A stretch of DNA of 42,899 bases from a virus, in the IMG/VR virus record IMGVR_UViG_3300023223_000249, positions 1 through 42,899 of that record; one strand, written 5' to 3'. Below the pieces are notes generated by a model, which did no database searches, was not told the origin of the DNA, and was given only the letters and a program-made list of their open reading frames with translations. Positions 3,438 to 42,899 of this stretch are shown one piece after another (the stretch's first letter is position 1; every line of letters starts with the position of its first letter). Both the position numbers and the translations under genes were made by a program.

Positions 3438-3782
3438 ATGAACAATATTACAGTCAAGACAGACGGCAGCGGGATAATTGTATCTGCTCAAGGTCCACAA
3501 GGGGCAACAGGTCCGGCGGGTAGTCTCGGTAATATAGTCGAAGTGTCAACAGCTTATACCACCAGTAACGCAGACGCAGTTATCATAGCGACGGGCACCT
3601 TCACAGTGACTTTACACCTTTTATCGACTGCAAATAAAGAGATAGCTATAAAATCCTCATTAGGAATAATCACCGTTGCGGCTGATGGATCGGATACAAT
3701 CGAAGGCTTAGCATCAATTGATATAACAACCGGGCAAAGTGTCACGCTAGTTCCGACAACTTCAGAATGGGTAATAATCTAA
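3438..3782 (+). CDS. Collagen-like fibre protein
   Basis: A 114-residue protein. Residues 16-27 carry a short collagen-type Gly-X-Y run (GPQGATGPAGS), typical of phage fibre trimerisation segments. The rest reads as repeated beta strands ending LVPTTSEWVII, resembling the small head domains at fibre C-termini (compare the end of the 789-residue fibre at 16553-18922). The stop codon overlaps the start of the spike gene (TAATG), so the two are translationally coupled and probably assemble together. Confidence 0.75.
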   Translation: MNNITVKTDGSGIIVSAQGPQGATGPAGSLGNIVEVSTAYTTSNADAVIIATGTFTVTLHLLSTANKEIAIKSSLGIITVAADGSDTIEGLASIDITTGQSVTLVPTTSEWVII

Positions 3783-6700
3783 TGAGCTTTAAATACAGCA
3801 TTAATTCAGGCACTCGCACTTTTTATCTTTCTGCTAATGGCGATGATATAGCTTCGGGTCTTTCCCCGGAGACAGCGGTTAAGACAATAGATCAAGCTAT
3901 CCTTAATGTAATCGCGGTTAATCCAACGGCGTTAAATCCTACAGCTATTATTGGACAGGGCGCGGGAATTTTTGTAACTGATAATTTTTCAATACCTGAA
4001 GGCTGCAACTTTGAAGGTCCAGACACGACATTCATAACAAACGGTTTGTCTGGGGTCACTCCTGGCGATAGTGCGATATTTAGAATTATTTCACTGGTCG
4101 TGCTAACTGATAACGCCTCAGCACTTTCCCTTCCTGCTAGTTTCGATGTTGGTATTACTCTCGCGGCTATTTCTTGCCGTGGTGAAAATAGTATTGGATT
4201 TAATCTAACTAATACCTCTGACACTGTAGTTTTTACAGCGGGCTCTATTCGACTTGAAGCTGTCGGCGCGGTTGGGATTTCCGATACAAATAATAACGAT
4301 ATACCAGAAGTCTATGACGTAGAATTGTTTAAGATGATGGCGAATAATACAACAGCTTTCGTGCATAACCCTTCACTCGGCACTTCTGAATCGGTTTTAA
4401 ATATTGGTTCAATTAGTTTAGAGGGATCACCGACGGGCACCACCGGATTAAATATTCTTAGCGGTGCTGTTGACTGCTCGGCAACTCATATTGAAGCTGC
4501 AATAGCTATACATGTTGCTTCAGGTGCGACTTTAAGCATAACGGGAACGTCTATTGAGGGAGCTATAATTGTTGATTTAGGCGGCATTCTACATTGTGAA
4601 GTTCCAGATTTTGAGGGAACCATCACAAACAACGGTGAAATCCACGGAAGAATCGGCGATAGCATTTTTGGCGCTCAATCGTTTATGAATGGCATTGCGA
4701 TCAATTCAACGACTGAAGGTTTTAAGCCGCCAGATATGACAACCACGCAACGTGACGCGATTGTTTCCCCGGCAACAGGACTTCAGATTCATAACTTAAC
4801 TACAGAAGAGCCCGAGTATTATACCGGCTCGGCTTGGGTATCTATGTCAGGCGATGGCGATGTTATTTCTGTTACTGCCGGAACGAATCTTAATAACAGC
4901 GGCACGGCGACTGAGCCTGTTTTGAATCTCGATGATACAATTACCGGCAGCGGTTCGGGTGGTGATTTAACTCTGAAAGGTGCGGCCAGTAGTCCAAACG
5001 GCGGAGATGTTATAATAACTGGTGGACCCGGCAGCAATAACGGCGGAGATATTAACCTCAGAACTGGCTACGGAAGCTCAGGCAATGGCGGCAATATTAA
5101 TTTAACCGGCGAAGAAGGAACCAACGGAAACGGCGGCGGGTTTAATTTAACTGGCGGTAATGCTGCAACTGATGACGGTACAGGAACCGGCGGCGGCTTT
5201 GATCTCACGACCGGTTTAGGCGGGTACGTTAGCGGGGACGGTGGCGATATTAATTTAACCACCGGTTCAACGGGTGCGGGTACAGGTAAAAGCGGATCTA
5301 TAACTCTTGATATTGGTAATGATGCGGGCGGCGGTGTTGGAAGTATTTCATTAGCTCCCACAAATGGAACGGTTGATATTGGCCCGAATATTACAGTCGA
5401 TCAGATCGGGAATATTGAAGGCGTAAATATTCTTGAGGTCGGTCAAGTAGTCGGCAATCAAACAAATGGCGCTCTTGTCGTAAAGGGTGACAACACAGGT
5501 TTAGTTGGCGGCAATGTCACTATCTCCGGCGGCATTGGTTCTTCTGTTGTTGGTAAAGTAACGATTGAAGGCGGAACGAGCGGCGCAGGAACCGGCGATA
5601 TACTTCTACAGCCTAATGCGGGCGATGTCGGTATAGGTAAAACACCGACGGCCAAGCTAGATGTTAATGGTGCCGTTAAGGTCTCCGATGATTTTACTGT
5701 TGACGGTGATTTAATATTCGCTGATAAAAGTAATGGAACGGTAACGCTTGGCAATGCCACCACCGGCACGGATCGATTCAATGTCTATGGTCCTGGTAAC
5801 GGCTTGAACCAGGGAATTATGAGTTTATATAACTCTGTTGGTGGGATTCTCTTCAGATTTAAAGATCAAATCACCGCATCATCAATACCGCCAAGAATAC
5901 AAGGACAATCAAACCTTGGTCTTGGTTATGATACTGATTCAAACGCGCCGCATATCTTTTACGTAAACGGCAACGAAAAGATGCGTCTTACTTCTGATGA
6001 CTTAATAATTGATAGTATCGCCACTAATCCGGGTGACACATTAGATATAAAAGGCGGTGATGGAGTAGCAGCACAAAGCGGCGCAACGGTAAATATCAAT
6101 AGCGGTGATGGTGGCGCGACTTCTGGAAGTGGAGGCGGTTTATTCTTAGAGGCCGGTAGTGCTACAGCGGCGACAGGTGGCAGCGGTGGAACTCTCATTA
6201 TCGCAAGTGGTGATAGTACGGGCGGTAATTCTGCGGGTACTTGTTCTTTTGAAGGCGGCAAAGGCGGCACTACTGGATTCGGCGGCAATGTTCAAATGTT
6301 AGCGGGTGATGGTGGATCCACAAGCGGTCCGGCAGGTGACATAACACTAACCGGCGGCGATGCTGTTTCAGGTGATTCTGGAAAGGTTATCATAAAAGGC
6401 GGCACCAGTGGCGATGCGAACGGCGGCGATGTCACTATAAATTCAGGTGATTCAGATGGTGATGTAAGAATCCAAGGCGACGGCGGTTCTTTATATGTTG
6501 GACCTTCAGCCAATGAAGATAGCGCAATCTTTCAAGCTCAGTCAAATACACAAGGACTTTTACCACCGCGAATGAGTACGGTTCAACGTGATTTAATTTC
6601 ATCGCCTGCTAATGGTTTGCAGATCTATAACGCAACAACAGATAAGCCGGAATATTTTAACGGTTCTTCATGGGTTACGTTAGTTAATCAAAATACGGAC

Positions 6701-7666
6701 TACTTAGATTTCACGCCGCAAAATCCTAATCCACCTTACAAGCAAGCGAGAATCTACTACAGCGAAGACAGAGAAACACTAGATTTCTATAATGCGATTT
6801 CTGATGTGACGGTCAATTTGCCTGAAGAATCTATACAGCCAGTGTGGAATTCAACAGGCTCAACGATTACGAACGGTCAAGTAATTAAATTCTCAGGAGT
6901 TGTTACAGGTGGAATCCCTAATATCGAATTAGCTCTAGCTGATACCGTCGCGGATGCAAATGCGGCGGGCGTTGCTACTCATGATATCGAAAACGGTACA
7001 AAAGGATATGTCACTATTATCGGCTCAGTTGGCGGTGTGAATACATCGGCATTTAGCGCGGGTGATATTTTATTCTTGTCAACTTCAACGGCAGGAGGAT
7101 TAGAAAATACAGAGCAGGTGATATTAAATCCTATTGCAATATGCTTGGTTTCTGATGTTACAGACGGCGTTATTCTAGTTAAGCCTCGCGGTGTTGTAAA
7201 TATTACGGCTCTAGCCCAGGTAAGTAAAGATACAGGAAGCCCAACGCAAGGAATTAATACGACGCTAGAGCCCGTAAGCGCATATGAAAACGCGGCTTTA
7301 CCATCCTTAAACGTCACGGCTAACTTCACAGCTTCAGAAGGTAACTATGAATGTGAGTTTCAGCCCGCATCAATAGGCGCTAGCGGATTTTACAGAGTCG
7401 ATTTCTCAGCCACTTGTACTTATTCAGATAGTAAAGATGTCATATTTAAAGTTTTTGTTAATGGCTCCGAAACTCCATTAGGGGGAATTATGCCATTTGC
7501 TAGTATTGATCCGAGTCAAGGCGGTTCTGTATCCTTCTCAGGAATAACGAGTGAGGTAATTGATAATACTGAAACTATTGAAATATATGTTGGCTCTGAT
7601 GATAGCAGCGGCACATTAACATTTGCTTCGTGCTTATTCTCAGTTACTCGGATTGGTAACGCCTAA
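3782..7666 (+). CDS. Large tail spike/fibre protein with glycine-rich repeats
   Basis: This 1,294-residue protein is a probable host-binding spike. The N-terminus has the beta-helix entry motif YLSANGDDIASGLSPETAVK. A module of the form 'PP.M(T/S)T.QRD.I.SPA.GLQI.N.TT..PEY..GS.WV' occurs twice (about residues 316-356 and 925-970). Each copy borders a glycine-rich block of 'GG.I.L.G' repeats (about 386-526 and 756-900). The middle has KLDVNGAVKVSDDFTVDGDL, common in long fibres. The last 120 residues look like a C1q/TNF-type jelly roll. ATG 3782 is chosen because it overlaps the previous stop (TAATG); an in-frame ATG at 3767 is possible. Confidence 0.88.
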   Translation: MSFKYSINSGTRTFYLSANGDDIASGLSPETAVKTIDQAILNVIAVNPTALNPTAIIGQGAGIFVTDNFSIPEGCNFEGPDTTFITNGLSGVTPGDSAIFRIISLVVLTDNASALSLPASFDVGITLAAISCRGENSIGFNLTNTSDTVVFTAGSIRLEAVGAVGISDTNNNDIPEVYDVELFKMMANNTTAFVHNPSLGTSESVLNIGSISLEGSPTGTTGLNILSGAVDCSATHIEAAIAIHVASGATLSITGTSIEGAIIVDLGGILHCEVPDFEGTITNNGEIHGRIGDSIFGAQSFMNGIAINSTTEGFKPPDMTTTQRDAIVSPATGLQIHNLTTEEPEYYTGSAWVSMSGDGDVISVTAGTNLNNSGTATEPVLNLDDTITGSGSGGDLTLKGAASSPNGGDVIITGGPGSNNGGDINLRTGYGSSGNGGNINLTGEEGTNGNGGGFNLTGGNAATDDGTGTGGGFDLTTGLGGYVSGDGGDINLTTGSTGAGTGKSGSITLDIGNDAGGGVGSISLAPTNGTVDIGPNITVDQIGNIEGVNILEVGQVVGNQTNGALVVKGDNTGLVGGNVTISGGIGSSVVGKVTIEGGTSGAGTGDILLQPNAGDVGIGKTPTAKLDVNGAVKVSDDFTVDGDLIFADKSNGTVTLGNATTGTDRFNVYGPGNGLNQGIMSLYNSVGGILFRFKDQITASSIPPRIQGQSNLGLGYDTDSNAPHIFYVNGNEKMRLTSDDLIIDSIATNPGDTLDIKGGDGVAAQSGATVNINSGDGGATSGSGGGLFLEAGSATAATGGSGGTLIIASGDSTGGNSAGTCSFEGGKGGTTGFGGNVQMLAGDGGSTSGPAGDITLTGGDAVSGDSGKVIIKGGTSGDANGGDVTINSGDSDGDVRIQGDGGSLYVGPSANEDSAIFQAQSNTQGLLPPRMSTVQRDLISSPANGLQIYNATTDKPEYFNGSSWVTLVNQNTDYLDFTPQNPNPPYKQARIYYSEDRETLDFYNAISDVTVNLPEESIQPVWNSTGSTITNGQVIKFSGVVTGGIPNIELALADTVADANAAGVATHDIENGTKGYVTIIGSVGGVNTSAFSAGDILFLSTSTAGGLENTEQVILNPIAICLVSDVTDGVILVKPRGVVNITALAQVSKDTGSPTQGINTTLEPVSAYENAALPSLNVTANFTASEGNYECEFQPASIGASGFYRVDFSATCTYSDSKDVIFKVFVNGSETPLGGIMPFASIDPSQGGSVSFSGITSEVIDNTETIEIYVGSDDSSGTLTFASCLFSVTRIGNA

Positions 7667-14645: not shown

Positions 14646-15788
14646 ATGGCTTGGATTGATATAGATTTTAATTTGATAATTCCCGGAATGATTACACGCG
14701 GACCCGCTTCTGTTTCTTTTGGCGAATATCTTCAGCAGTTTTCTTTGGCACTTGATGAAAAGCAAAATATGACGCAATCCGGTACGCCAGTATTATCTGA
14801 GATACCTTTTCTCGTTGATGAGATCAGAAACGAAGGCACTTTTATTGCTAACTTTCGGGCACTTATAGAAGGTTATCGGGTTATCTGGTTTTCTGATACC
14901 TGGTATGAAGATGGTGTACTTACTGACGCTGAAAATTATCCCGACTATTTAATTACTGATGCTGATTTAGAGGCGGCAATGGGTGCTGAGGCTTGGGAGA
15001 TATTAAACGATCACGCCACGATGTCATTTCAAGATATATTTAAAGCATCTATACTTCAGGGATTTTATACAATATATCTTAATACAAAGGTCGTTGATAA
15101 GGCGTATATAGATACAAACGATACGCCGACGCAAAACAGGCCGACGATAAAAAAGACTAATGGATTTTTTGAGTACGAAGCTTCACCCGATTCAGTTATT
15201 GGTGCTAATGGAGAAGCTTATTCTTCTGTATTAACTACAATCCTTTCAGGAATTACTGAGAAGTCTACAACTCGACAGGGGCCAGATGATTTATACCGTT
15301 TTTCATATAGCGCACAGCGCACAATTCAGGGAGGCACTAGCTTTAGATGGAATGTATCTTATCTATTAGGCTCAGAAAGTGCCGATTATATGCATATCAC
15401 TTATCTATTCAAAGATTTAGAAGATAATATTCTAACGATGAATGCGGTCCCTTTATTTGAGATCACGAGGAATTTTATATCATCTAATGAGGAAGGCGAA
15501 GACACAGTATTCACACAATTTGATACTGATTTTCCATTAATTAAGAATGACTTAGAAACGGTATTTTTTCCAATTGATCCTAACTCAGTTTCTCAGTCTG
15601 GCGGCACAGTTCAAGAATTCTTTTTCAATGGGAATTCAGGCGCGGATATTAGAGAGCCCGACGTGCTTGCTGATGAGAGTAGTACATCTTCATTTTATGC
15701 GGAAGATCAGCAAATGATAATACAGCCGCCACAAGATTTTATCTTTATTGAGTTGAATAATCCGGCCTTAGAATTTTTCATCCTCTGA
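14646..15788 (+). CDS. Tail tip/adhesion protein of unknown family
   Basis: A 380-residue protein, three bases after the previous stop. It has many aromatic and acidic residues (NFRALIEGYRVIWFSDTWYE, then ITDADLEAAMGAEAWEILND) and a C-terminal beta part ending IFIELNNPALEFFIL. It is the last rightward gene before the antisense pilin-like gene, whose 3' end it overlaps by 21 bases. Probably virion-located by context; function unknown. Confidence 0.65.
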   Translation: MAWIDIDFNLIIPGMITRGPASVSFGEYLQQFSLALDEKQNMTQSGTPVLSEIPFLVDEIRNEGTFIANFRALIEGYRVIWFSDTWYEDGVLTDAENYPDYLITDADLEAAMGAEAWEILNDHATMSFQDIFKASILQGFYTIYLNTKVVDKAYIDTNDTPTQNRPTIKKTNGFFEYEASPDSVIGANGEAYSSVLTTILSGITEKSTTRQGPDDLYRFSYSAQRTIQGGTSFRWNVSYLLGSESADYMHITYLFKDLEDNILTMNAVPLFEITRNFISSNEEGEDTVFTQFDTDFPLIKNDLETVFFPIDPNSVSQSGGTVQEFFFNGNSGADIREPDVLADESSTSSFYAEDQQMIIQPPQDFIFIELNNPALEFFIL

Positions 15789-16370
15789 TAAGTAATAGCT
15801 AAACTTCCCGGTAAAAACATTAACTTTTCCTTCTTGAGTTCCGAGCTTAAACATAAACTCTTGAAAATTAGTTCCTGTTATAACTTGGCATTCTCCAGTT
15901 TTGAGAAGGTTAAACGATTTCACGGCGCTTCCATCTTTGAAATAGATATCTGATTTTAATTCGATGAGTTCTAGTTCAATGCCGTCTTTGTCTGTGATTT
16001 TAAATTCACCAGATTTGAGGCTGATGATATAGAATTGATCACCTGTTATATTGAATGCCTTTGACTGGTAAAGCTTAATCATGCTTCCGACTTTTTTGAC
16101 TTCTAAAGAGGCGGGATCGGTTCGCATGACACTAAGGACCATTGTTAAAAGAATGGCTGTAATTGTGATAACAGTGATTAGCTCGATCATTGTGAAGACT
16201 TTTACCTTCTTCAAGCTTTCGATAATATCGGCAGTGATTACACAAATGACAGTTGAACTTATTAAGATCATCAAGACCATCCAAATAGGCGCGGTTAAGA
16301 TGTTAGTTGTAGCGACTAATAAAAGTCCGGCGTTCATGGCGATAGCGATTAGTTTTAAAATAGTATTCAT
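15768..16370 (-). CDS. Prepilin/pseudopilin-like membrane protein
   Basis: A 200-residue protein transcribed against the tail genes, with AAAGGGG before the ATG. Residues 1-25 and 28-50 are two hydrophobic helices. Residues 54-80 read KKVKVFTMIELITVITITA and onward, matching the prepilin N-methylation motif ([K/R]-rich leader, then FTxIEL and a hydrophobic helix) with Phe+1 and Glu+5; position -1 is Val instead of the usual Gly. The remainder is soluble and beta-like, as in minor pseudopilins of the GspH/FimT type. An in-frame TTG at 16214 would give a canonical short leader MKKVKV. Role unknown: exclusion of other phages or interference with host pili or secretion is inference. Confidence 0.7.
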   Translation of the reverse strand: MNTILKLIAIAMNAGLLLVATTNILTAPIWMVLMILISSTVICVITADIIESLKKVKVFTMIELITVITITAILLTMVLSVMRTDPASLEVKKVGSMIKLYQSKAFNITGDQFYIISLKSGEFKITDKDGIELELIELKSDIYFKDGSAVKSFNLLKTGECQVITGTNFQEFMFKLGTQEGKVNVFTGKFSYYLSEDEKF

Positions 16371-16552
16371 GTTTTCCCCTTTGGTTGGTATAGCTTACCA
16401 TGAAAGAGATATGCAAAGTATTTCACTATCCTTTATGGATTGTAACGGCTCCCCTTATATAAATAAGTCTTATACGCGAGTGTTTTCGTATAAATTGAAA
16501 TTATATGTAAAAGGTCTACTTTAAAATAAAACTAATAAAGAGATCGATAACT

Positions 16553-18922
16553 ATGCTCACGCCAACATATTCAGCAACGGTAACTGTCGGCGGGACCGAT
16601 CAGTCTGTACAGTTTAGCGCCTTCCCGGATGAAATGATAAACCGTCAATCCGGCGATGTAACTATTATTCATAATGATTCAGACGGTCTTCCTTTTGATA
16701 TTTCTTCACTTTCTGGTAGTGATTTTAAATCAGTACCTTTTGGTTCTGGACAGACTCCGGTAACTTTAGCCGTTGGTGTTGTTGGTTTTTCTCGTGAAAT
16801 ATTCACTCTTGTAACTTCAGGAACTCCCGATACTTCAGGAACTTTTATACTTAGAGTTGCGGGAGAAAATACGACAGCTATTCCTTACAATGCAGATGAT
16901 GCGGCAATCTTAGCGGCTCTTATCGCTTTGCCTTCCAGAACAGGCGGTGACTTTTTAGTTTCAAGAAAGGCCAAAGAAAATCTAGGTTTTGCCGGTGCTC
17001 AGATATTGGTTGAAACTTCTGGCGGCTTTGCTATTGACTTCTCTTCGACTTTAGACGGTGCTTCACTTCCAGACGCTTCAATCAGCCTAAATATTGATCA
17101 GAAAGGTTCAAGTATTGCGAATGAGTACAACGCAAACTGGGATAAAGATTCTATACCGGCGGCTTATTCAGACTTTGATTTTGACAAAAAAGGCGCGATT
17201 GCCTTCTATATTGCCTTAGAGGATGGTGATGACTTTTACCAGGTTTACCAAAGATTAAATATTGTTGATGATGCCTTTGTTGATGGCGGCGGCGCGATTC
17301 CTTCAAGCGCAACTTATGTATATAATCCTAATGATCCTTCGGCATGGCTGAGAATAACAACTTCTTCACCGGCGCTAATAAATGAGGGCATGGATAAGTT
17401 AATAGCTAAGAACTTCAGAGACTTTGGCGCTATCCTTGATATCCAAACAACTCCACCAGTTTCACCGGCTGACGCTGACGCTTATTTGGTTCTATCTGTT
17501 GCTACTGGTGACTGGACAGGCCAAGAGGATCAGATAGCCAAGTGGTCTTCAACTCTCTCAGCTTGGGCATTTTCAAACGTCCATAGAGCCGGTGATGAGG
17601 TCTTAAATTTAAATGACAGTTCGCTTTATCGGTGGTCTGGTTCTGCTTGGGTTGCGGTCTCAAGTGGTGCGGGTGATGTTGTCGGTCCAGGCGTTGCAGT
17701 TGATGACAATATTGCGACATATAATTTAACCACCGGTAAAATAATTAAGGATTCTGGCGTTGGTATTGCTGCTGTTACCGCCAATACTGCCAAGATTACA
17801 AACGCGACACATACGGGCGATGCGACAGGTGCAACGGCATTGACCTTACAACCTGCGGCGATTACCGGCAAACCTTCTGTAACTCTCTCTGCGACTGACT
17901 TAGTTTTAATTGCTGATGTATCAGATAGCAATAACCTAAAACAAGTTGCAGCCTCGGAATTCATGGGCTCCGGTACTGATCCAGACGCGATTCATGATAA
18001 CGTAGCGGGAGAAATTGCGGCGATTACAGCTAAAGCCACTCCGGTGTCTGGTGACTTTCTATTAATTGAAGATAGTGCCGACTCGAATAATAAGAAGAGA
18101 ATCACAATAGGCGATTTACCCGGCGGCGGTGCTTCTTTGCCGGTTGTTGATACTACTTCGATAGTTGAAGGCAATACAGACACTACTAAAGAAATGCGTA
18201 TAGACGTTGAGACAAATGTAACAACGGCGACAACTCGCGTTTTGACTATGCCGGATACTGATGTAAATATTCAGGCTCAAGGGCGATCAACCTCCTTGGG
18301 AACTACCGGCGCGATTGAAATTGATTGGAATGAATTAAGCGTTATTGAGCTTGGAACTTTAACCGGCAACGTAACACTTACATTTATTAATGTCAGCCAA
18401 GATGCAACCATAAATATTACATATACAACAACCGGCGCTTTTGATGTTACTTTACCTGGTTCTGTCCTTATCTTGAATGGTGGAGCGAGTACAGCGGATT
18501 CTTATAACTCAATCTTCATGACAGCCACAAACGCAGCGACACAGCAACAGGCGGCATATTCTACAGATAGTTCAGGCGGTGTATCTATCACAGCCACAGA
18601 AGCGGCGGCGGGTGTTGATAACGACCAGACCGGAACGACTTATACTTTTGTATTAACTGACCAAGAAAATAAAACCGTATGGCTGAATAATGCTTCGGCA
18701 ATTGCCGTAACGGTGCCGACTAATGCAAGTGTCGCCTTTCCAATTGGCACTAAGATTAATACAATGTTTGAAGGTGCAGGAATCCCAACGATAACAGGTG
18801 ATACAGGCGTTACTGTAAATGGCACAAGCGGCGGTTCTGTCGTTATGAATAACCAGTACCAAGGCGCAACGCTAACAAAACGAGGCACCAACGTGTGGAT
18901 CGTGACAGGCGATGTATCATGA
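16553..18922 (+). CDS. Tail fibre protein with DUF2793-like module
   Basis: A 789-residue protein with an N-terminal virion-attachment part (residues 1-260, including FPDEMINRQSGDVTIIHNDS). A module at about 301-360 (TPPVSPADADAYLVLSVATG, then QIAKWSSTLSAWAF and SLYRWSGSAWVAVS) resembles the DUF2793-type segment of phage fibres. Then come repeated fibre linkers (GKIIKDSGVGIAAVTANTAK; paired 'LIADVSDSNNLKQV' and 'LIEDSADSNNKKRI') and a compact C-terminal domain with NKTVWLNNASAIAVTVP. The stop overlaps the next start as ATGA. Confidence 0.82.
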   Translation: MLTPTYSATVTVGGTDQSVQFSAFPDEMINRQSGDVTIIHNDSDGLPFDISSLSGSDFKSVPFGSGQTPVTLAVGVVGFSREIFTLVTSGTPDTSGTFILRVAGENTTAIPYNADDAAILAALIALPSRTGGDFLVSRKAKENLGFAGAQILVETSGGFAIDFSSTLDGASLPDASISLNIDQKGSSIANEYNANWDKDSIPAAYSDFDFDKKGAIAFYIALEDGDDFYQVYQRLNIVDDAFVDGGGAIPSSATYVYNPNDPSAWLRITTSSPALINEGMDKLIAKNFRDFGAILDIQTTPPVSPADADAYLVLSVATGDWTGQEDQIAKWSSTLSAWAFSNVHRAGDEVLNLNDSSLYRWSGSAWVAVSSGAGDVVGPGVAVDDNIATYNLTTGKIIKDSGVGIAAVTANTAKITNATHTGDATGATALTLQPAAITGKPSVTLSATDLVLIADVSDSNNLKQVAASEFMGSGTDPDAIHDNVAGEIAAITAKATPVSGDFLLIEDSADSNNKKRITIGDLPGGGASLPVVDTTSIVEGNTDTTKEMRIDVETNVTTATTRVLTMPDTDVNIQAQGRSTSLGTTGAIEIDWNELSVIELGTLTGNVTLTFINVSQDATINITYTTTGAFDVTLPGSVLILNGGASTADSYNSIFMTATNAATQQQAAYSTDSSGGVSITATEAAAGVDNDQTGTTYTFVLTDQENKTVWLNNASAIAVTVPTNASVAFPIGTKINTMFEGAGIPTITGDTGVTVNGTSGGSVVMNNQYQGATLTKRGTNVWIVTGDVS

Positions 18923-19788
18923 GTTTACTCTTAAGGCGTGGGATATTTAGCGGTTCCTTTAAAGAGATGGTAACGACTTGGAATACTGAGAATTTAGGCG
19001 GCACAGGTTCAGCGACTAAAGTTATTTTATTGCCTATGACTGCGGGGCCTTCTGTTGATTGGGGCGACGGCACAGTTAATAACCTTAATACTCATACCTA
19101 TTCAGTGGGTGGTGTAAAGACTGTAAAGATTTACGGGAATGTTGCAGGGTGGACGTTTTTTAACTTAGGCGATAAATTAAAAATCACCGATGTTTCTAAT
19201 GTTGGTGGCTTATTTATAGATGGTATCGGTTCTTTTTATGGTTGTGCTAATCTCGTATGGTCTGCCACGAATGCACCCAATATAATAACGTCTATGAGTA
19301 GCTGCTTTAGAGGGTGCACTATATTTAACGGGGATGTTTCAAAGTGGAATGTGTCTAATGTTATGTCCACAGTTCATGCGTTTCGTGACACGGCATTCAA
19401 TAAAGGTATCGGATCTTGGGATGTTGGCCTCGTAACTTCAATGAATAGTATGTTTAGAGGTAGCCCCTTTAACCAAGATTTGAGCTTATGGCAAATTGGC
19501 AATGTTGATAATGTAGGGAGTATGTTTAGGGATGCAATAAATTTCGATCAAGATATATCTTCTTGGGATATCGCCTCTGTTACCACTGCCGCTAACTTTT
19601 TAAACGGCTCCGCATTCACTCAAACAAACTATGATTTATTATTACCTGCATGGGAGGCTCAAAGCGTTCAAAATAATGTAGTCGCTCATTTTGGCGCAGC
19701 TACATATGGCGCAGGTGCTCCGGCCACGGCTAGAGCTGCTTTAATTGCGGATCACACTTGGACAATAACAGACGGAGGCGCGGCATAA
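18919..19788 (+). CDS. PKD plus DUF285/BspA-like repeat adhesin
   Basis: A 289-residue protein. Residues about 40-85 carry a PKD-like strand pattern with VDWGDGT and THTYSVGGVKTVKIYG. Residues about 110-240 have four to five repeats of about 24 residues of the form 'S.W(D/N)V..V..M..MFR...FNqDiS.W', the DUF285 (BspA-like surface protein) signature. Such repeats are known from bacterial surface proteins, so the gene may be host-derived and used for attachment. Start at ATG 18919 is set by the ATGA overlap; the in-frame ATG at 18895 is less likely. Confidence 0.78.
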   Translation: MSLLLRRGIFSGSFKEMVTTWNTENLGGTGSATKVILLPMTAGPSVDWGDGTVNNLNTHTYSVGGVKTVKIYGNVAGWTFFNLGDKLKITDVSNVGGLFIDGIGSFYGCANLVWSATNAPNIITSMSSCFRGCTIFNGDVSKWNVSNVMSTVHAFRDTAFNKGIGSWDVGLVTSMNSMFRGSPFNQDLSLWQIGNVDNVGSMFRDAINFDQDISSWDIASVTTAANFLNGSAFTQTNYDLLLPAWEAQSVQNNVVAHFGAATYGAGAPATARAALIADHTWTITDGGAA

Positions 19789-26455: not shown

Positions 26456-26887
26456 ATGAATACTCGGCACAGAACATTATTGAAAGAGGCAATTCGCGGA
26501 AAAGGTTTTTGTAAAGGTCTTGGAGTTGGTAAGCGCATGTATCATGCAATCTTTGAGATTGGTCGCGGCGGTTTCGATCCGTTATGCAAGATATTAACCT
26601 TAATTACACATTCAAAAAATGACATGATTGTTGATTATATATGTGCGGAGCAAGACGGAATTTTCGTTCGTAACACAGTTGCCAATGACAGCAAGTTTAA
26701 TATTTATCAGTCACAATCGCGCGTTATAAGTGAGCTATCAGATGTGATTCAAGTACTTACTAAATCTTGCAGCGACGGTAAGCTTACAACCCGTGAAATT
26801 GAAGCCATTAAGGTTCAAGTCGATGAATTCAATAAGGAAATTTACGGAGTAATTAAAGCGGCTGAATCTGGGAAGTACAACTCATGA
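26456..26887 (+). CDS. CII-like regulatory protein (Phage_CP76-type)
   Basis: A 143-residue protein resembling the CII-like family of P2-group phages: residues 40-71 FDPLCKILTLITHSKNDMIV then DYICAEQDGIFVRN match the 'lt..el..it.d..ildyla...Ggvfv' segment, and the C-terminal half with ISELSDVIQVLTKSC and DGKLTTREIEAIKVQVDEFN matches the 'dG.iT..E...i..e' helices. The expected N-terminal HTH is not obvious. The location right after the divergent promoters fits a regulator. Confidence 0.6.
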   Translation: MNTRHRTLLKEAIRGKGFCKGLGVGKRMYHAIFEIGRGGFDPLCKILTLITHSKNDMIVDYICAEQDGIFVRNTVANDSKFNIYQSQSRVISELSDVIQVLTKSCSDGKLTTREIEAIKVQVDEFNKEIYGVIKAAESGKYNS

Positions 26888-37197: not shown

Positions 37198-37704
37198 ATG
37201 AAAGATCAAGAGTTATTAGATAAATTAAATGAATACCTATCGTATGAAGATGGCCGCTTGATATGGATCAAGAAGAGTTCAAAAAATACAGTAATAGGCA
37301 GCACCGCAGGGCATACGCGGCCATCAAAATATATGACTCTAAAATTTGACCACAAAATGTATTTATTGCATCGTGTGGTCTTTTTCATTCATCATGGATA
37401 CTTCCCTAAGTATGTCGATCATATAAACGGGGTAAGGAATGATAATAGGATTGAGAATCTAAGAGAATGCACACACTCACAGAATCATCAAAATAAGTCT
37501 TTAGGTGCAACTAATAAGAGCGGCTATAAAGGTGTATCAAAAGCAAAGTGTAATAAGTGGCGAGCTAGAATCAAGAAGGACGGCAAAGAATTCCATTTAG
37601 GGACTTTCGACACCGTGGAGAAGGCTGCTAAAGCTTATAATGAAAAAGCCATAGAGATCTTTGGAAAATTTGCTCATTTAAATAGAGTTGTATATAATGA
37701 CTGA
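37198..37704 (+). CDS. HNH/AP2 homing endonuclease between terminase genes
   Basis: A 168-residue free-standing homing endonuclease. HNH (HNH_3-type) at residues about 55-97: LLHRVVFFIHHGYFP, then VDHINGVRNDNRIENLRE and CTHSQN. AP2 DNA-binding domain at 110-162: SGYKGVSKAKCNKWRARIKK, then FHLGTFDTVEKAAKAYNEKA. It overlaps the large subunit start by 8 bases. Both terminase genes look intact, so it is inserted between rather than inside them. Its relative lies at 42334-42876. Confidence 0.9.
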   Translation: MKDQELLDKLNEYLSYEDGRLIWIKKSSKNTVIGSTAGHTRPSKYMTLKFDHKMYLLHRVVFFIHHGYFPKYVDHINGVRNDNRIENLRECTHSQNHQNKSLGATNKSGYKGVSKAKCNKWRARIKKDGKEFHLGTFDTVEKAAKAYNEKAIEIFGKFAHLNRVVYND

Positions 37705-41592: not shown

Positions 41593-42362
41593 TGCCATCG
41601 GCGAAACAAGATGAAAGGCGGCATGAAGCGGCCTTAGTCAGGAACGAACGAAGATTAGAGCGCGAAATTATCGCGTTCTTTGCTGTTCTATTCTTGGCTA
41701 TGAAAGAATCGTTCAAAGAGATCGGTATTGTTGGCGCAAGGACTGAAATACAAAAAGCTCAACCGGCATTAGAAGAGATCCTGCAAAATTCCTATATGCG
41801 ATCCGGTCCCGATGGAATCAAGCTAACTGTTGAACAGCTTGAAGAGGATGACTTCTCAGAAGAAGCCGCATTACTGGCCTTACTTATTTGGGCCAATGCT
41901 GAGGCCAAAGTCGCGTCAACTCAGATCACTAATACTACCGCAAATATTATGGATGACCTCATAGCGGAACAAGCTGCAAGCGTTGAAACTGGTATAGAAA
42001 TCCCCGTCGAAGATATTTTGGAAGAGTTAAATAAGCGGAACCGTAATAGAACCGGGACCATTGGAACAACTGAAAGCGGAAAAGGTATTGGCCGTGGACA
42101 ATCTGAAGCGGCTGAGGAAATCGCAAGAGGTCAGATATTCACTATAAAAAAATCTTGGACAAGCAAAAAAGATTTTAGGGTGAGGGGATCACACGCAAGG
42201 GCAGATAGGCGCTATACTCGATCACCTATCCCAGTAAATGAGCTATTCCAAGTGGGAGCCTCTTTCGGTAGGTTCCCACTTGATACTACATTATCAGCCG
42301 AAGAAAGTATAAATTGTAGATGTTTTGTTAGATTTAGGAAGATAAAAGCTCAGGGAAGTTAA
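41592..42362 (+). CDS. Head morphogenesis protein (Mu gpF/SPP1 gp7-like)
   Basis: A 256-residue protein. Residues 1-150 are helical. The C-terminal domain has KKSWTSKKDFRVRGSHARAD, then PIPVNELFQVGASFGRFPLD and EESINCRCFVRFRKI, i.e. the family's 'K.W....D..vR..H' and 'ENINCRC' signatures. These proteins sit inside or beneath the portal and assist head assembly and DNA injection. The 3' end overlaps the antisense HNH gene by 29 bases, but the domain is complete. Confidence 0.85.
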   Translation: MPSAKQDERRHEAALVRNERRLEREIIAFFAVLFLAMKESFKEIGIVGARTEIQKAQPALEEILQNSYMRSGPDGIKLTVEQLEEDDFSEEAALLALLIWANAEAKVASTQITNTTANIMDDLIAEQAASVETGIEIPVEDILEELNKRNRNRTGTIGTTESGKGIGRGQSEAAEEIARGQIFTIKKSWTSKKDFRVRGSHARADRRYTRSPIPVNELFQVGASFGRFPLDTTLSAEESINCRCFVRFRKIKAQGS

Positions 42363-42876
42363 GGTTCGCATATTCATGGAATCCGTACTTTATACATGCT
42401 TTGTCGTATGCCATAGCGGCCTCCCTCTCATCGATAAAAGAGCCTAGGAATTTTATTCCTTTTCCTTTGCCAAGTCCAATAGCAGCTCTCCACCTATTTA
42501 GCTTTCGGGAGACACCTATATATTGGCTAGTCCCATTAGTCTTGCGAGGGCGATTTCTCATATTTTGTGCGTGCGTACACTCTCTTAAGTTATCGATGGA
42601 ATTATTTTCAGTGTTTCTATCTATATGGTCGATTTCATTTATTGGGAGATATCCGTAAGTCATAAACCAATTTAATCTATGGGCTGAGACCTTCTTCTGT
42701 TTTTTATTTATAGACATAAAGATATACCGATGTCTACACCCTTTCATTGTACCGGCTTCGTTTCCTGTTTTACCACGAGCGCCATTCTCTGCACACCAAT
42801 AAGGCTTGCCTTCTTTGAATTCAATCATAGTGGATAACTTCTCATAATACGGAAGTAATTCTTCATTCTTGTTCAT
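42334..42876 (-). CDS. HNH/AP2 homing endonuclease, antisense to head genes
   Basis: A 180-residue protein (ATG at 42876, with GGAG 7 bases upstream; an upstream in-frame TTG at 42888 is less likely). HNH elements at about 65-105: SAHRLNWFMTYGYLPINEID, then HIDRNTENNSIDNLREC and THAQN; AP2 domain at 116-172: SQYIGVSRKLNRWRAAIGLG and FLGSFIDEREAAMAYDKA. It is related to the 37198 endonuclease. Inserted antisense between the head morphogenesis and protease genes. Its 5' part is duplicated at the left end of the window by the terminal repeat. Confidence 0.9.
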   Translation of the reverse strand: MNKNEELLPYYEKLSTMIEFKEGKPYWCAENGARGKTGNEAGTMKGCRHRYIFMSINKKQKKVSAHRLNWFMTYGYLPINEIDHIDRNTENNSIDNLRECTHAQNMRNRPRKTNGTSQYIGVSRKLNRWRAAIGLGKGKGIKFLGSFIDEREAAMAYDKACIKYGFHEYANLNFPELLSS

Positions 42877-42899
42877 GGGATACTCCAAATAAAAAACAG
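42756..42899. repeat. Terminal direct repeat, copy 2
   Basis: Identical to bases 1-144. It covers the N-terminal coding part and leader of the endonuclease gene. When the ends are joined, the gene order head morphogenesis - HNH (antisense) - protease - capsid becomes continuous. Confidence 0.95.

Follow-up and report, generated by a model that had tools for sequence, protein, structure and literature searches.

A prepilin-like membrane protein lacking the peptidase glycine, encoded antisense between phage tail genes: a candidate decoy for host type IV filaments

Type IV prepilins and minor pseudopilins (PF07963, TIGR02532, GspH/FimU, ComGD) carry a Lys-rich segment followed by an FTxIEL helix with a glutamate at position 5 (Glu5) and a C-terminal domain, and prepilin peptidase cuts them after the glycine at position -1. 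In Streptococcus sanguinis, Gly(-1) was found to be crucial for processing, with a Gly to Ala change being harmless and Gly to Ser blocking processing, and the authors suggest that the unprocessed PilE1 is dominant-negative on filament formation (PMC6497953). For P. aeruginosa, bulkier -1 residues are reported to leave the pilin unprocessed (PMC6497953), while the G-1S substitution in the gonococcus prevents both PilD cleavage and piliation (PMC4877100; PMC4010543). Phages, in turn, are known to encode proteins that inhibit type IV pili, either via PilB, as do Tip and Aqs1 (PMC11656802), or via PilC, as does PfsE (PMC8764522). All three stop pilus assembly and exclude other phages; mimicry of a pilin has not been described for any of them. 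Pilins encoded by tailed phages are also on record, including the PilE-like protein of Acinetobacter phage Acibel004, the pilin of Synechococcus phage ACG-2014f and phrog_3433. The first two possess canonical leaders (KNKG/FTLIEL and KQNG/FTLIEL, respectively, thus with G at -1) and no extra helices. In the open-access literature we found no phage pilin that is both devoid of Gly(-1) and tethered to the membrane.

A prepilin-like gene of this latter kind is present in the window, by which we mean the whole stretch of DNA analyzed, i.e., the complete viral record IMGVR_UViG_3300023223_000249 of 42,899 bases. The same 144-base sequence occurs at both ends of the record (1-144 and 42756-42899), hence the genome is probably complete and was assembled as a circle. 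It encodes an HK97-type capsid and protease, terminase, portal, tape measure and tail genes, and has no close relative in the phage collection searched. No integrase was found in it with PF00589, and a CII-like transcription regulator (phrog_101) is encoded at 26456-26887 of the same genome, so that either life style is conceivable for the phage. Two HNH endonuclease genes (42334-42888 and 37198-37704, the second with an AP2 domain) adjoin the head/terminase genes. A 1299-aa protein with no confident family match is encoded at 3767-7666, with head genes on one side and a head-tail adaptor on the other, and a DUF285 protein (PF03382, E=5.7e-30) at 18895-19788, directly 3' of the fiber-like gene.

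The prepilin-like gene lies antisense between two tail genes (Table 1), as the first-pass annotation had proposed, and AAAGGGGAAAAC precedes its ATG start; its ribosome-binding site is a good one. Its codon score (0.193) falls within the range of the other genes of the same phage (0.13-0.39), and its status as a real open reading frame can be regarded as confirmed. An overlapping frame on the opposite strand, 16081-16524(+), was rejected as a true gene, as its codon score of 0.04 makes it look non-coding. Upstream of the gene, CGTTACAA is located about 70-75 bases 5' of the start in the window and in the homologous loci L027, L028 and L030, in three of these four followed by CTGCAA; this element is a possible promoter or regulator site.

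Table 1. Location of the prepilin-like gene, its parts and its neighbors in the window
Feature	Position	Strand	Remark
Tail-region gene	14646..15788	+	3' end shares 21 bases with 3' end of prepilin-like gene
Fused gene, 200 aa: two-helix module plus prepilin-like module	15768..16370	-	ATG start
C-terminal beta-rich domain, presumably periplasmic, residues 83-200	15771..16124	-	low-confidence models
Family C-terminal motif VNVFTGKFSYY	15792..15824	-	FTG in 6 of 6
Prepilin-type helix FTMIELITVITITAILLTMVLSVM, residues 59-82	16125..16196	-	Glu63 is Glu5
Lys-rich segment KKVKV, residues 54-58	16197..16211	-	Val58 at -1, Gly in prepilins
In-frame TTG, proposed second start	16212..16214	-	near ATG of split homologs; aligned codon no start in other fused homologs
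Two-helix N-terminal module, residues 1-52	16215..16370	-	separate 56-57-aa gene in L027, L028
Predicted membrane helix 2, residues 32-50	16221..16277	-	hydropathy
Predicted membrane helix 1, residues 7-25	16296..16352	-	hydropathy
Ribosome-binding site AAAGGGG	16376..16382	-	5' of ATG 16370; read from sequence
Element GCCGTTACAA	16440..16449	-	upstream of gene; CGTTACAA at matching place in 4 of 5 tail-locus homologs
Minor tail/fiber-like gene	16553..18922	+	divergent neighbor; conserved in L027 and L030

With the window protein as a lone query, neither the phage collection nor the viral contigs nor PDB gave a match, and relatives were reached only after a related phage (L003/G002) had been picked up by its terminase, which is 75% identical. 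The homologous locus of this phage is likewise antisense between the same tail genes and is made up of two genes that overlap by ATGA, encoding a 56-aa two-helix protein and a 145-aa prepilin. Counting this locus, we found five homologs in uncultured viral contigs other than the window (L027, L028, L030, L046, and L033), and all but the last occupy the common antisense position among tail genes. Two of the six members (L027 and L028) are split into ATGA-overlapping genes for a two-helix protein of 56-57 aa and a stand-alone prepilin of 138-145 aa, whereas the remaining four, the window included, are single fused proteins. Of these, L030 and L046 reside in the common slot and L033 among small genes in an unrelated neighborhood, where the gene just 5' of the homolog (5063-5776) has an end made of a long ESA/AWSA repeat. 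In the tree, the two split members group together in a clade with support, and the whole family of six is separate from three E. coli pilins, so that a single fission or a single fusion may account for the distribution of the two forms. The pair is under purifying selection, judging from its sequence divergence (dN/dS of 0.16 in its pilin part, 0.26 in its two-helix part). As the modules are fused in four members and ATGA-coupled in two, it seems that they act together in one task. In genome scans, neither the fused protein nor the terminase retrieved any relatives among prophages or hosts. A chance open reading frame or an assembly artefact, in favor of which one might cite that the window protein alone matches the profile only weakly, is extremely improbable and already refuted by the homologs: these lie on five independent contigs, the fused form occurs in four contigs, the codon statistics fit phage genes, and the motif is kept in five homologs, of which four share the locus, in addition to the low dN/dS of the split pair.

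The similarity to prepilins rests on the third helix and the segment preceding it. Residues 53-64 of the window protein read LKKVKV-FTMIEL, with Glu at +5, and the hydrophobic helix spans residues 64-82. The prepilin-type motif noticed in the first-pass annotation thus holds, and FT(M/I/L)IEL with Glu5, an FTxIE-type mature N-terminus continuing into a hydrophobic helix, recurs in all six members. It is the best-conserved part of the family, the remainder of which falls to 27-37% identity; the conserved residues are F1, T2, I4, E5 and L6, further V, T, I and L within the helix, and a C-terminal FTG. In profile searches the window protein alone remains below the Pfam threshold for N_methyl (PF07963; E=0.017 at full length, 0.0026 from the TTG), but the pilin part of L027 scores above the cut-off (E=2.9e-6) and four of the five homologs pass that of the TIGR02532 prepilin model. 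L030 matches the ComGD profile (7e-7) over most of its length, spanning helix and domain, and the GspH profile TIGR01708 is matched among the homologs at 6.4e-6. With hhalign, the family profile aligned with E. coli GspG (4.4e-6) and GspH (2.3e-4), the unrelated membrane proteins GspM and GspO serving as negative controls (0.8 and 0.19). These comparisons support the view that the third helix is a genuine prepilin-like helix.

What sets the family apart from cellular prepilins, besides its viral origin, is found in front of that helix. The two extra membrane helices suggested earlier are indeed predicted in the window protein, and the fused members carry 56-80 residues with two predicted helices before the motif, although for L033 the simple hydropathy scan called the first helix and the pilin helix only. 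A short hydrophilic leader with a single membrane helix occurs only in the split L027 and L028. From hydropathy, the likely topology of the fused protein would have the N-terminus inside, followed by two helices, a cytoplasmic Lys-rich segment, the third helix and an outer C-terminal domain. It had also been put forward that one gene yields two products, the full-length protein from the ATG at 16370 and a short prepilin from the TTG at 16214. This TTG is in frame and close to the ATG position of the split homologs, yet we consider two products very unlikely. The aligned codons of the other three fused homologs (TTT in L030, GTA in L046 and CTA/AAC in L033) are not starts, and their remaining in-frame starts occur at distances that bear no relation to it. 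In the window sequence no clear ribosome-binding site is seen 5' of the TTG, and the short product would still be without Gly(-1). The TTG may be a relic of a separate start or a chance coincidence.

Nor does the leader MKKVKV, previously described as textbook, bear closer inspection, for it ends in Val instead of Gly(-1), and glycine is absent from this position in all six members (V, A, N, T, R and A, with Val in the window and Ala in L030 and L046). For a background, viral contigs were scanned with a pattern blind to the -1 residue, which returned 16 places, 11 of them prepilin-like by the downstream helix; in these 11 genes, position -1 is G in seven and A in four, three of the latter being near-identical. 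Since the -1 residue is larger than Ala in four of the six members, including that of the window, and in view of the published -1 mutants, these four should resist prepilin peptidase, while L030 and L046 may be cleavable. The Ala(-1) of these two fits cleavage (PMC6497953), and the ComGD and GspH matches indicate minor pilins, as would be expected if the host peptidase cut after -1 and a phage-supplied minor pilin entered the host filament and altered its properties. Given the Val, Asn, Thr and Arg in the other four members, and the fused members' leaders, which are 56-80 residues long and contain two membrane helices, we regard such a working pilin as improbable.

As for the C-terminal domain, a GspH-type fold is possible, for which structure prediction had been proposed as a check, together with the profile search. 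The latter bore out the prepilin affinity through the homologs. PF12019, the GspH-type soluble domain, gave no match at E≤10 in the six records, and AlphaFold2 models built from six and five sequences reached pLDDT of 54 and 53. In these weak models a helix is followed by strands, so that the C-terminal domain looks beta-rich after one helix, as in prepilins. In the VIA list, EpsH (4dq9, a GspH-type minor pseudopilin) stood at rank 2, with a second-look alignment of Z 4.0 over 73 residues (rmsd 3.4); the match is weak, many unrelated rows having Z 3-4.7, and is suggestive but within noise. Foldseek matches of the first model to beta-propellers were discarded due to the low confidence of the model. 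Designed Pizza propellers, which the soluble domain matched in PDB, were likewise set aside, since these matches added up numerous weak repeats and contained no stretch that passed.

Taken as a whole, we tentatively favor, at somewhat below even confidence, a membrane-tethered and mostly uncleavable prepilin decoy that interferes with a host type IV filament. The protein would reside in the inner membrane, its third helix and periplasmic domain mimicking a (minor) prepilin of the host filament, be it a pilus or the pseudopilus of type II secretion or of competence. The two extra helices would act as an anchor that holds the Lys-rich segment on the cytoplasmic side and the C-terminal domain in the periplasm, the orientation of a pilin. 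Without Gly(-1), prepilin peptidase would leave most members uncut, that of the window (Val) among them, and the retained Glu5 helix would join pilins or the assembly platform, whereupon filament assembly would stall, as unprocessed pilins can cause. A stalled filament would then block pilus-dependent superinfecting phages or affect another filament function. The phage might profit by excluding superinfection in either cycle, or in some other way; with no integrase detected by PF00589, an advantage to a lysogen is at most conceivable. The decoy is weakened by the Ala(-1) of two members, tolerable to peptidases, by the empty genome scans for host relatives, by the sub-threshold Pfam score of the window protein itself and by the lack of a PF12019 match to its putative pilin-type C-terminal domain.

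Alternatively, the pilin-like helix might reflect ancestry only. The protein would then be anchored in the membrane and do different work in the periplasm, such as keeping DNA from crossing the inner membrane or taking part in lysis, and its peptidase site would have decayed through disuse. The universal loss of Gly(-1) and the two extra helices would agree with this, and no endolysin or holin was recognized with certainty among the scanned genes. Lysis cassettes may pair a coupled small two-helix gene with a larger one, an arrangement that the present locus resembles. We nevertheless judge this alternative rather unlikely, since FT(M/I/L)IEL with Glu5 is the best-conserved part of the family and a motif without use would be expected to decay.

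Returning to the decoy, a close parallel is provided by the G-1S mutants of PilE1 of S. sanguinis and PilE of Neisseria gonorrhoeae, which are unprocessed and in which, as in the phage family, Glu5 is kept and the -1 glycine replaced; a dominant-negative effect is suggested for the former. Unlike the phage proteins, they were made in the laboratory by point mutation of a pilin native to the host and have no two-helix anchor. It is conceivable, though we lean somewhat toward doubt, that the phage gene is a natural viral dominant-negative pilin, that is, a captured prepilin which dropped the peptidase glycine, bears a two-helix tether and poisons the host type IV filament machine. The pilins of Acibel004 and ACG-2014f, also with a prepilin motif in a tailed phage, have no detectable homology with the family outside the helix region. 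PfsE is similar to the window protein as proposed in acting on an inner-membrane component, and by analogy with PfsE, Tip and Aqs1, whose effect is for the window protein only proposed, pilus interference by the window gene is a reasonable hypothesis. If it is true, mimicry of a filament subunit would represent a route to pilus inhibition other than those directed at the motor (Tip, Aqs1) or the platform (PfsE), and the fused and split homologs would provide natural -1 variants that bear on whether the uncleaved state is the active principle.
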